A stretch of DNA of 64,000 nucleotides from Williamsia sp. 1135. Lineage in GTDB: Bacteria; Actinomycetota; Actinomycetes; Mycobacteriales; Mycobacteriaceae. The notes beneath the pieces were generated by a model that saw only the letters and a program-made list of their open reading frames with translations, was not told the origin of the DNA and made no database searches. The first letter of the stretch is position 1; the number at the start of each line of letters is the position of its first letter. The translations under genes were made by a program, and so were the position numbers. The DNA lies in contig NZ_MJEI01000107.1 of the NCBI RefSeq assembly GCF_002095395.1, positions 310,001 to 374,000 on the forward strand, written 5' to 3'. Below are positions 750 to 53,694 of the stretch, piece by piece.

Positions 750-813
750 CCGATCTTGGTGGGTTTTGGTGAGCGCGACCTGCGGAAACGCTCACCAGAA
801 CCCACCAAAACCG
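750..813. repeat. Palindromic intergenic element, copy A (convergent junction)
   Basis: An inverted repeat with arms at 756-775 and 789-808 (19 of 20 bases pair) and a 13-nt loop containing ACCTGCGG. It lies between the convergent ABC-F and acyl-CoA synthetase genes. The same architecture and loop word recur at 21177-21245, 27297-27363 and 53630-53694. It probably acts as a bidirectional terminator, because it has no long T tract but sits exactly between two stop codons. Confidence 0.75.
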
Positions 814-823
814 GGAGTTCGGG

Positions 824-6952: not shown

Positions 6953-8441
6953 TCGAGGAATGGCATTCATGCCGCGTCGACGTGGCGTTCGGTTGTCCTC
7001 CGCCGTTGCTCTGCTGGCCGCCCTGGCGGTGGCCGGTGCGCAACTCTCTGCGGGTATGGCAGTCGCGGAACCTCCGAGCAGCGCTGACAAGATCGCCACG
7101 CTGATCAATCAGATCGCCGATACAAACCAGAACATGGCCAACCTCGACGGCGACGTCGCAGTGAAGCGAGAGGCCGTCAACCGCGCCCTCGTGGATCTGC
7201 AGAACGCCAGGGAATCGGAGCGGCTCGCCGCTGTCGCCGTACGAGGCGCTCAGGAGTCCCTCAAGCTGGCCACGGGCGCAATTGCGCTGGCCGAGAAGGA
7301 TTTCGACGGCTTCATCCGCAGTCTGTACACGCAGGGCAACAGCCAGGACTCGATGGGGAGCTATCTCTCGGGCGAGCCCGGGGCGGTGTTGGATCGGGCT
7401 TCGGTGATCGATCAGCTCAGCAAGGATCAGCAGGCGACGATCACCCGTTTGCAGCAGGCCCGCAATGAAGAGGCCAACCGCGCCTCCACGACGCAGGCCA
7501 CGCAACAGCAGGCCGCCTTCGCCACTGCGACCGCGGAAACGCGGCAGGCCGACGCGCAGACGGCCATCGCCGAGGCGACAGCGGCAGTGAAAGCGGAGCA
7601 GTCCCGCCGGGCGATGCTCGAGAAGGACCGCGCCGCCGCGCAAGAGGAGCTGAACAAGCTGCGTGGCCAGCCGGCGCCCGCTCCGCCCACCGAAGGGGGT
7701 GGGCAGGTTCCCATCCTGCCCGAGCAGCAAGCTGCCATCGAGCAGCAGGCGCACCAGGACGCGCTGCGCGCCGCCGGCGACGCGGCCGGAAAGCTCGCAC
7801 TGAACACCGCCCAGCAGACTCTCGCGGCCATCGTCGGTTCACTGACTGCGCCGCATACCGACATCGACGGCGCCACGCCTCCGCCGACCACGACGCCGAC
7901 CGATCCGAATGCGCCGCTCGACCCGACCCTGCCCGCCGATCCGGACGAGCCGTTCGACCCGACCCTGCCCACCGAGCCCACCACGCCGGCGCCGGGAACG
8001 GTCGATCCGGGGCTTTCCGGTTCCGCCGCGGTCGAGGTCGTCGTGAATCGCGCACTCTCTCAACTCGGGGTCACGTATTCGTGGGGCGGCGGCGACGCCA
8101 ACGGTCCGACGCTGGGTATCAGGGACGGTGGGGTCGCAGACTCCTACGGTGACTACAACAAGGTCGGTTTCGACTGTTCCGGCCTGATGATCTACGCCTT
8201 CGCCGGTATCGGCGTCTCGCTGCCGCACTACACCGGATATCAGTACACGTCCGGGCCGCAGGTCCCGTTGTCCCAGATGCAGCGTGGCGACATGATCTTC
8301 TACGGCCCGAATGCCAGCGAGCACGTTGCCCTGTATCTCGGCGACAACACGATGGTGGAGGCACCGCAGTCCGGCGACGTCGTCAAGATCTCGCCGCTGC
8401 GTACCAGCGGCGCGATGCCGTACGTGGTCCGACTGACCTGA
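6948..8441 (+). CDS. ripA: NlpC/P60 peptidoglycan endopeptidase RipA
   Basis: A 497-residue secreted protein with a signal peptide (about 1-42, cleavage near AVAEPP), an alpha-helical coiled-coil region (45-235) that auto-inhibits the enzyme in M. tuberculosis, a Pro/Asp/Thr linker with a duplicated DPTLP module (about 318-350), and a C-terminal NlpC/P60 domain. Cys410 (FDCSGL) and His459 (EHVALYLG) are the catalytic pair. It cleaves the D-Glu-mDAP bond for septum splitting. The GTG start has GAGGGAG 7 nt upstream. M. tuberculosis has ripB next to ripA; here moxR1 follows directly. MoxR1 and VWA partners downstream may assist its folding or export (known linkage, inferred role). Confidence 0.95.
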   Translation: MSRGMAFMPRRRGVRLSSAVALLAALAVAGAQLSAGMAVAEPPSSADKIATLINQIADTNQNMANLDGDVAVKREAVNRALVDLQNARESERLAAVAVRGAQESLKLATGAIALAEKDFDGFIRSLYTQGNSQDSMGSYLSGEPGAVLDRASVIDQLSKDQQATITRLQQARNEEANRASTTQATQQQAAFATATAETRQADAQTAIAEATAAVKAEQSRRAMLEKDRAAAQEELNKLRGQPAPAPPTEGGGQVPILPEQQAAIEQQAHQDALRAAGDAAGKLALNTAQQTLAAIVGSLTAPHTDIDGATPPPTTTPTDPNAPLDPTLPADPDEPFDPTLPTEPTTPAPGTVDPGLSGSAAVEVVVNRALSQLGVTYSWGGGDANGPTLGIRDGGVADSYGDYNKVGFDCSGLMIYAFAGIGVSLPHYTGYQYTSGPQVPLSQMQRGDMIFYGPNASEHVALYLGDNTMVEAPQSGDVVKISPLRTSGAMPYVVRLT

Positions 8442-19902: not shown

Positions 19903-21185
19903 CCGGGCGACGCCGGCCACTCAAGACGGTCACCGGGGTCAGTGGGGGTACGGACGTCTACGACGCCGCGATCAATCCGGCCCGATCGACGCTCGCGTCG
20001 GCCGTCGAGGTCGCGCAGATCGCCGAGACCCACAAGATCGACGCACTTTTCGCTGCCGACCTCCTCGCGTTCGGGGCCCAGGGTGCGATCGGCGCCCAAG
20101 AGCCCCTCATGTACCTCGCTGCGCTCAGCGCGGTCACATCCGATGTCGGGCTGATAGCGACCGTGACCACGACGTTCCATCACCCGTACAACCTCGCGCG
20201 GCTCTTCGGGACCCTTGACCACATCAGCAACGGCCGGGCGGCCTGGAACGCGGTGACCTCGTCTCTCGGTGAGGAGAACTACAGCGATCTGGAACTGCCG
20301 AGCCCTGAGGAGCGATACGCGCGGGCGACCGAGTCGCTCGAGGTGGTCGCCGCGCTGTTCGACAGCTGGCGGCCCGGAGCGTTGAGTCCGGGAACCGACG
20401 GCGCCGTGCTCGATCCGGATCTGGTCCGGCCCATCGACCATCGCGGCACCTACTTCACGGTGCGCGGTCCCCTCAACATCCCGTCGCTGCCCCAAGGCCG
20501 CCCCGTCCAGTTCCAGGCCGGGCAATCGGCCGGCGGCGTAGAACTCGGAGCCCGATTCGCCGAAGTCGTCTTCACATCCCTCGCGACCATCGAGGATGCC
20601 ACCACCTACGCGAAGACGATCCGGTCACGCGCTGCCGAGCTGGGACGGGACCCGCAGCTGCCCCTCATCTTCAGCTCGCTCCACGCGACGTACGGCTCCA
20701 CCGAGGCCGAGGTCCGGGCGCTGGTCAAGGAGAGGGAGGAGTCGATCGACCTGACAGCGGCACGGGCCGGTCTCGAAGACATGCTCGGCGGTGGGGTCGA
20801 CTTGTCGGAGTTGCCGCTGGACAAGCCGATTCCGGAGTCGGTGCTGCCTGACCCGCGCACGGTGAACCGGCGTCGCGGTCGGGTCGAGATCTTCAGCGCC
20901 CTGGCACGTCAGGGTAAGACGTTACGAGAGTTGATCGTCGCCGCGCAGGACACCGGGCACTGGGCGGAGTCCGGTACTCCGGAACAGATCGCCGACGCGA
21001 TCGTCGAACGATATGACGCCGGGGTGCTCGACGTCGTCAGCCTCGGCGGGCTCGCCGATCCGATCAGCCGGGACTTCGTCGTCAACGGGCTACTGCCCGA
21101 ACTGCGCCGTCGGGGAGTCGTCGGAAACGATTACGTCGGCGGCACGTTCCGCGAAAACCTCGAACTCCCGCCCCTACCCCGATAA
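19899..21185 (+). CDS. LLM-class flavin-dependent monooxygenase (NtaA/SnaA/DszA group)
   Basis: A 428-residue FMNH2-dependent oxygenase with the TIM-barrel pattern of the NtaA/SnaA/DszA group: FAADLLAFGAQG, LIATVTTTFHHPYNLARLFGTLDHISNGRAAWN-type block (TTFHHPYNLAR, then SNGRAAWN) and FQAGQSAGGVELGARFAE. Members oxidise organosulfur or amine compounds using reduced FMN from a partner reductase; none is nearby. The N-terminus is shorter than most members, starting near the first strand. The ATG overlaps the stop of the broken hydrolase (ATGA). Its TAA stop is supplied by the end of palindromic repeat copy B. The substrate is unknown. Confidence 0.9.
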   Translation: MTGRRRPLKTVTGVSGGTDVYDAAINPARSTLASAVEVAQIAETHKIDALFAADLLAFGAQGAIGAQEPLMYLAALSAVTSDVGLIATVTTTFHHPYNLARLFGTLDHISNGRAAWNAVTSSLGEENYSDLELPSPEERYARATESLEVVAALFDSWRPGALSPGTDGAVLDPDLVRPIDHRGTYFTVRGPLNIPSLPQGRPVQFQAGQSAGGVELGARFAEVVFTSLATIEDATTYAKTIRSRAAELGRDPQLPLIFSSLHATYGSTEAEVRALVKEREESIDLTAARAGLEDMLGGGVDLSELPLDKPIPESVLPDPRTVNRRRGRVEIFSALARQGKTLRELIVAAQDTGHWAESGTPEQIADAIVERYDAGVLDVVSLGGLADPISRDFVVNGLLPELRRRGVVGNDYVGGTFRENLELPPLPR

Positions 21186-21245
21186 TGGGTCGTTCTGGCG
21201 AACAAACATGCAGGTGACGACCGCCAAAGCAGCACATCATCGGGG
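21177..21245. repeat. Palindromic intergenic element, copy B
   Basis: The ends CCCCGATAATGGG and CATCATCGGGG (arms 21177-21201 and 21221-21245) are imperfect inverted repeats around AACAAACATGCAGGTGACG. The monooxygenase stop codon (TAA, 21183-21185) lies inside the left end. It sits at the convergent junction with the TVP38 gene. Confidence 0.75.
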
Positions 21246-27296: not shown

Positions 27297-27363
27297 CCCG
27301 ATGATGGGTTGTTTTGGCGACGCTCACCTGCGGGTTTGTTCGCCAAAAGGGCCCATTATCGGG
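27297..27363. repeat. Palindromic intergenic element, copy C
   Basis: The best-defined copy: arms 27297-27320 and 27340-27363 match at 20 of 24 bases, with ends CCCGATGATGGG and CCCATTATCGGG, and a loop including CACCTGCGGG. The right end contains the TAA stop of the nucleoside hydrolase read on the minus strand (27356-27358). Confidence 0.8.
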
Positions 27364-35159: not shown

Positions 35160-35171
35160 TCCGGACTGAAC

Positions 35172-35243
35172 CACAAACCCAGCCCGTTCAGGCAGAACCA
35201 GGTGTTGTGAGACCTGGTGGTGCCTGGACGGGCTGGGTTTGTG
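35172..35243. terminator. Bidirectional hairpin between the PEBP gene and pyrD
   Basis: Arms 35172-35203 and 35212-35243 pair at 29 of 32 positions around an 8-nt loop; the outer words are CACAAACCCAGCCCG and CGGGCTGGGTTTGTG. It lies exactly between two convergent stop codons. Its sequence is unrelated to the four-copy palindrome family. Confidence 0.8.
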
Positions 35244-35246
35244 AGA

Positions 35247-53629: not shown

Positions 53630-53694
53630 CCGGAGTTGGTGGGCTTTGGCGAGCGTTTCCGCAGGTCGGGGCCGCCAGAACCCACCATTATCGG
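53630..53694. repeat. Palindromic intergenic element, copy D
   Basis: Inverted arms 53630-53654 and 53671-53694 share TGGTGGGYTYTGGCG and flank CGTTTCCGCAGGTCG, the reverse of the loop in copy A. The right end (ATTATCGG) holds the TAA stop of the thioesterase-family gene (53688-53690, minus strand). Confidence 0.75.

Follow-up and report, generated by a model that had tools for sequence, protein, structure and literature searches.

A genus-specific, REP-like family of palindromes behind stop codons in Williamsia, probably acting as bidirectional 3′-end hairpins

Palindromic repeats and hairpins at bacterial gene ends

REPs are the closest described counterparts of the repeat family reported here. 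They are reported to sit chiefly 3′ of coding regions, in the spacers of unidirectional or convergent gene pairs, and GTAG REPs often supply the stop codon (PMC3733652); they are linked to RAYT genes and keep their palindrome through complementary changes (PMC2817692), and they serve as targets of insertion sequences (PMC1525189). For mycobacteria, a reporter study describes hairpins without a U-tract that lowered downstream expression in vivo and cites another study in which the mycobacterial polymerase needed a U-tract in vitro (PMC5335608); the mRNA 3′ ends of M. tuberculosis are described as being defined by Rho (PMC5379054).

The family from Williamsia sp. 1135 shares with REPs a high copy number and an extragenic, 3′-biased position (the 1.11 Mb sampled contain 24 copies, of which 23 lie 3′ of a gene), residence between convergent and unidirectional genes, the occasional donation of a stop codon, complementary changes in the arms and the presence of an insertion sequence within a W. 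soli copy. It differs in that its copies measure about 66–74 bp, whereas REPs span 20–40 bp and are often paired (BIMEs/REPINs), and in that the 48 ends of the 24 sampled copies bear GTAG in no case and CGTC in three. A Y1 (HuH)/RAYT transposase (PF01797) was found in none of nine genus genomes by a search that was positive in 5 of 14 controls, and such an enzyme was rejected as the mover. We regard the repeat as working like a REP and, because tag, size and RAYT differ, refrain from classing it as one. With REPs already reported between convergent and unidirectional genes, downstream and giving stops (PMC3733652), the distinct class envisaged in an earlier note on this DNA was an overstatement.

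Like the mycobacterial ‘I-shaped’ terminators, as outlined in PMC5335608, the element is a long hairpin directly behind genes that usually lacks a U-tract; unlike them, its copies form one dispersed family with common arms, loop, ends and invariant bases. Like DUS/USS pairs it consists of repeated words that make hairpins at gene ends, but its arm words never occur singly outside the palindromes in 1.11 Mb. No description of such a family in Williamsia or its relatives was found in the open-licence literature.

Size, sequence and placement of the family

The window, a stretch of 64,000 nucleotides at C58:310001–374000 of the Williamsia sp. 1135 genome, holds four copies (A–D, Table 1), of which A and C were also picked up by a mechanical inverted-repeat search. 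Much of what the earlier note had said of them was confirmed: all four near-palindromes carry the loop word ACCTGC (plus strand in A and C, minus strand in B and D), A and D are opposite in orientation, sequence comparison separates the A/D subfamily, with the arm TGGTGGGTT, from B/C, and gene calls agree that each lies between convergent 3′ ends. Nor is there a further copy in the window, where the covariance model described below scores A–D at 60.6–88.7 bits on the better strand and elsewhere finds only one 13.5-bit match at chance level. Copy A lies 2 nt past one gene end (748) and 9 nt short of the end of the ligase gene (824), B reaches into the 3′ end of the monooxygenase gene and gives it its TAA (21183–21185), and C and D provide the TAA of the minus-strand nucleoside hydrolase (27356–27358) and thioesterase (53688–53690) genes, respectively. 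The site of D is occupied also in W. soli, W. limnetica and Williamsia sp. 1138. With short flanks, the four copies have a predicted folding energy of −32.8 to −49.7 kcal/mol on either strand. In an Rfam scan of the window tRNA alone reached threshold and the palindromes matched no family; in five further 20-kb loci with copies, the only Rfam match was a cobalamin riboswitch overlapping one copy's edge.

Table 1. Copies A–D of the repeat and a different long hairpin in the window
Feature	Position	Strand	Convergent neighbours	Remarks
Copy A	750..814	+	ABC-type ATPase / AMP-binding ligase	First subfamily; 26-nt arms, 13-nt loop, ACCTGC on + strand
Copy B	21177..21245	−	Luciferase-like monooxygenase / VTT-domain protein	Second subfamily; loop on − strand; orthologous copy in W. 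soli
Copy C	27297..27363	+	MeaB / nucleoside hydrolase	Second subfamily; element of the earlier note
Copy D	53630..53694	−	HisG / acyl-CoA thioesterase	First subfamily; loop on − strand; directly 3′ of hisG
Different long hairpin	35160..35246		Kinase-inhibitor-like (YbhB-like) gene / pyrD	Convergent gap

Used as a DNA query, copy A returned 56 two-strand matches in its own genome, far beyond chance. A covariance model with rough E-values, R1, was built from an alignment of 32 copies, namely B, C and those retrieved with A as query, and divergent members may escape it. Across the whole genome R1 yields at least 148 two-strand matches at no fewer than 98 distinct places, both figures being lower bounds because they rest on 150 scored of 5991 candidates. 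As an unbiased sample we took contigs C58, C48 and C35, which include the window and amount to 1.11 Mb or 19% of this one 5.98-Mb, 107-contig genome; here R1 finds 24 copies at 47 bits or more, three matches of 17–21 bits being excluded from all counts. Extrapolated from these 24, the genome would hold about 130 copies, and the family probably exceeds a hundred.

A copy is an imperfect palindrome with a directional loop and typically reads CCGA, a variable part, TGGTGGGTTYTGGCGA, a 19-nt loop with ACCTG, TCGCCARAACCCACCA, a second variable part and TCGG. Unvarying bases within stem and loop include T12, G13, T20, G23, G24, A33, C34 and G37, which suggests recognition of the sequence beyond what a generic terminator would need. 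The 12-nt arm word occurs 16 times in the 1.11 Mb, each time within one of the palindromes, and none of the 24 sampled copies forms an adjacent pair with another. Because no pair among 50 copies compared within the genome exceeds 94% identity, the value of the closest pair, there is no sign of a recent burst among them. One copy (C35:219404–219516; L115:19404–19516) has 39 additional loop bases relative to W. soli, an insert that resembles, by eye, another GC-rich repeat near some copies.

Placement was judged from the gene calls of a simple script that took its codon usage from the window, and not from those of a published gene finder, and the orientations at C58:398592 and L059 were set by reading the ORFs, against the script's calls. 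On this basis a sampled copy is present in 15 of the 153 convergent gaps, in 8 of the 548 tandem gaps and in none of the 154 divergent ones; the 24th was called within an ORF with a wrong gene start and in fact lies between divergent genes. With that copy counted as one divergent case, Fisher's test gives p = 6e-6 for convergent against tandem and p = 2e-4 for convergent against divergent gaps. The bias towards convergent 3′ ends proposed in the earlier note thus stands as an enrichment, but confinement to them, and with it the claim that copies are always at bidirectional terminators, does not: a third of the sampled copies (8 of 24) lie between tandem genes and one of 24 between divergent ones.

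All eight sampled tandem copies begin no more than 6 nt from the upstream stop codon, and only 5.5% of possible tandem-gap positions fall within 16 nt of one. A set of 38 high-scoring copies, made up of the 30 best of the copy A search and eight of R1's first 30 and overlapping the sample in 10, was called 24 convergent, 13 tandem (with C48:129267, which the sample tally counts as convergent) and one divergent, the last being in fact tandem, with its own sequence providing the upstream gene's TGA. The distance to a called stop is at most 10 nt for 33 of them and 18–74 nt for four. Because tandem copies abut stops, 33 of the 38 lie near one and B–D themselves provide stops, the rule is better put as ‘directly behind the stop codon’. 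Insertion targeted to CTAG was considered and rejected, since TAG is not favoured beside elements (TGA 22, TAA 6, TAG 5, against TGA 595, TAG 169, TAA 61 elsewhere). The only clear divergent copy (L085:4592–4665) is situated between cobG and cobN, as named from their translations, and overlaps the edge of a cobalamin riboswitch; it is kept in W. soli, and W. limnetica has, by eye, the same loop with other arms.

Convergent gaps of this genome commonly hold long hairpins, and among the sequences that form them the repeat family is the most frequent. When gaps of 60–160 nt lacking a copy were searched for inverted repeats of at least 13 Watson–Crick pairs with one mismatch allowed, a hairpin was present in 16 of the 29 convergent gaps, in 8 of the 93 tandem gaps, in a single one of the 54 divergent gaps and in none of 528 shuffles. 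Unsupervised clustering of intergenic DNA (gaps of 30–600 nt) returned the repeat family as the largest cluster, with 23 gaps (14 convergent, 7 tandem and 2 divergent; 21 with a counted copy), the remaining eight clusters having two to five gaps each. The different hairpin of Table 1 belongs to a cluster of four gaps in the 1.11-Mb sample, all convergent, and is unrelated in sequence to copies A–D. Because hairpins of other sequence fill many convergent gaps, it is the hairpin at the gene end that looks selected, the family being one solution.

The repeat family is genus-specific. All nine Williamsia genomes searched, this one and eight others, have between 59 and at least 80 two-strand matches each; under strict filters, two genomes among 28 that represent further genera of the same taxonomic family have one weak match each (E 1.2e-6 and 9.6e-4) and none of 24 genomes from other families of the order has a match to the repeat. 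Among 12 named genomes, W. soli, Williamsia sp. 1138 and W. limnetica have at least 144–150 two-strand matches each, W. faeni 88, the record of Kitasatospora arboriphila NRRL B-24581 64, W. muralis 60, a Williamsia metagenome bin 10 and W. maris 2, with 0 in W. herbipolensis, W. serinedens, Gordonia hankookensis and Jongsikchunia kroppenstedtii. The name of the Kitasatospora record is at odds with its content: the genome bears the Williamsia repeat, and its meaB end and following gap (L125) are nearly the same as in W. muralis. Carriage by phages or plasmids was rejected, copy A having no match in 50,697 phage and 72,556 plasmid records.

Covarying stems and turnover at individual sites

The stems covary, which suggests that their shape is under selection. 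In 50 copies of the genome, in counts that are inflated by copy kinship and by a structure drawn from the copies' own consensus, 83.3% of 1350 pair cells hold standard pairs (78.1% when shuffled), 17 of 27 stem pairs have changed on both sides (12.8 in shuffles) and 85 cells carry a double change (47.0 in shuffles). None of 500 shuffles reaches the observed value of any of these measures, and shifting the partner by 1–3 columns lowers pairing to 34–46%. A comparison free of copy-kinship inflation is offered by the arms of orthologous copies in this genome and W. soli. Leaving out the row of C48:194414, 16 sites provide 256 pairs, among which there are 32 single changes and 6 double changes against 1.9 expected, with the pair retained in five of the six; without the two flipped sites discussed below, there are 3 double changes against 1.2 expected, two of the three being paired.

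Because the stems contain mismatches, a strict inverted-repeat count gives the copies arms of 5 to 19 pairs. Of the marks of an intrinsic terminator, the element has the GC-rich stem-loop just 3′ of the coding region, but four or more Ts within 8 nt past the core stem are found on 8 of 48 strands only. Since the U-tract is mostly absent, it is not a canonical intrinsic terminator.

Most sampled sites are occupied in W. soli too, where the state could be read at 23 of them, C35:260142 lying beyond the stretches compared. An orthologous copy is present at 18 of the 24, unbroken at 17 and split at one. The split copy, at C58:402413, is interrupted in its loop by a 1.4-kb insertion with an HTH_38/rve transposase (L220:4670–6160 in G002:C18), and the loop word CCTGCGG is found on both sides; from its domains we read the transposase as IS30-type, and the repeat may be an insertion-sequence target, as REPs are. 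At C48:247330, two W. soli copies flank a 60-kb segment (G002:C19, about 237.7–298.0 kb), and the genome studied here has one copy and no such segment between the flanks; we propose that the 60 kb were deleted or inserted through recombination between copies. Four sites are empty or otherwise filled in W. soli (C35:102376, C35:214633, C58:40725 and that of copy C), meaning that those gene ends can do without a copy, and at C35:102376 the remnant CCAAGATCGG left in W. soli points to deletion. Seen from the other side, the 20 copies that R1 finds in the W. soli stretches compared comprise 17 shared ones, the two bounding the 60-kb segment and one private copy (C24:236358), in place of which the genome studied here has a 1.4-kb open reading frame.

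Around copy C, the MeaB encoded in the window is 98% identical to that of W. soli, and the 12 kb surrounding meaB align to W. soli at 93%. At the site itself there is no family copy in W. soli, W. limnetica, Williamsia sp. 1138 or W. faeni; downstream of the stop the first three have a different sequence in common, and another palindrome (CCACCCGTTTTCGC...) is carried by sp. 1138 and W. faeni. Because the relatives have other sequence there, copy C was probably gained in the lineage of Williamsia sp. 1135. The second type of palindrome has T-runs on both strands (CCCACCCGTTTTCGC...GCGATTTTGGGTGGG) and is present in about three tandem copies in sp. 1138 (L122, about 8020–8280) and as a single related copy in W. 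faeni.

The loop is flipped relative to W. soli at 2 of 17 shared sites, those of copy A and C58:277095. When the W. soli orthologue was compared with the best other copy among the 50 at 15 sites, two of unequal length being excluded, the orthologue was closer to the resident copy at ten, equally close at two and less close at three, and these three include both flipped sites. In-situ inversion of the loop was therefore rejected as the sole cause of the flips, a paralogue being nearer to the resident copy than the orthologue at both, and for the same reason replacement is at least as likely; the two flipped sites look like replacements. As to the mobility that the earlier note had ascribed to the repeat, the apparent gain of copy C speaks weakly in its favour, and sites empty or otherwise filled in W. 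soli amount to 4 of 24; against it stand the 18 orthologous sites, the lack of any pair above 94% identity among 50 copies and the absence of a Y1/RAYT transposase from nine genus genomes.

Function and rival explanations

We hold it probable, with somewhat better than even confidence, that the palindromes are an old, genus-specific, REP-like family of bidirectional 3′-end hairpins held in place by selection. An element behind a stop would be transcribed from one side between tandem genes and from both between convergent ones, and either RNA would form a long hairpin at which the mRNA ends or by which its end is marked. Such a hairpin may aid the transcription stop, be it alone as a U-tract-poor ‘I-shaped’ structure or by pausing the polymerase for Rho, and/or it may block 3′-to-5′ exonucleases and thereby protect the mRNA end; from sequence and position we infer an RNA function in termination, pausing and/or end protection. 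Because the element would work in both directions, the orientation of its loop should be free, and the flips at two shared sites with retention of the place count in favour of a 3′-end hairpin, just as the divergent copy beside the cobalamin riboswitch counts against it. Selection would act on place and shape, the occupants of sites being exchanged slowly; we infer that ectopic recombination or template switching carries copies from one site to another, with no dedicated transposase.

A selfish miniature element, REP/REPIN- or MITE-like, could leave much the same picture if it inserted widely and survived only behind stops, where it does least harm, its hairpin serving its own mobility and not the host. 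The high copy number, common loop and ends, genus restriction and one apparent lineage-specific gain (C) are what such an element would produce, and covariation and invariant bases are also expected from recognition by a transposase. We nevertheless think this rather unlikely: inert survivors should scatter through long tandem and divergent spacers, whereas all eight sampled tandem copies abut a stop and a single copy is found across 154 divergent gaps, and neither the ceiling of 94% identity among 50 copies, the lack of a Y1 transposase in nine genus genomes (in a search covering the Y1 family) nor the failure of copy A to match phage and plasmid collections is in keeping with it.

Quite improbable, in our view, is a double-stranded DNA site, that is, a palindromic target of a nucleoid, topology or replication protein, located between convergent genes and tolerated or needed where positive supercoiling accumulates. 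Arms that covary instead of holding one sequence argue against it, as do the third of sampled copies that are tandem and an adjacency to stops stricter than topology requires, even if the invariant positions in arms, loop and ends and the convergent-gap bias would suit a bound site and REPs are discussed both with supercoiling between convergent genes (PMC1525189, PMC3733652) and as protein binding sites (PMC2817692). The least probable explanation by a wide margin is a DNA-uptake-type signal that forms a terminator when paired, in the manner of Neisseria or Haemophilus. Words of that kind should occur one at a time and be dispersed within genes. None of the 16 arm words in the 1.11-Mb sample lies outside a palindrome, for which reason uptake words were rejected and the idea is close to refuted, despite closely spaced uptake signals being reported to form terminator hairpins (PMC2267715).

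A bolder form of the 3′-end hairpin reading, which we consider unlikely, supposes that genes are followed by fixed ‘terminator slots’. The occupants of these slots would be swapped without a dedicated transposase, and their hairpin sequence would be recognised by a 3′-end factor; exchange would proceed via ectopic conversion or via hairpin-driven template switching able to flip the loop. If this were true, unrelated gene ends would share one genus-specific hairpin.

Williamsia is thus an actinobacterial genus with high-copy REP-like palindromes but without the RAYT to which REPs are tied. The many orthologous sites between close species allow loss, replacement and loop inversion to be counted site by site, and the roughly 130 natural variants of one hairpin that a single genome is extrapolated to hold constitute a ready test set. 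The family is thereby relevant to the way in which mRNA ends are set by U-tract-poor hairpins in mycobacteria-like bacteria.
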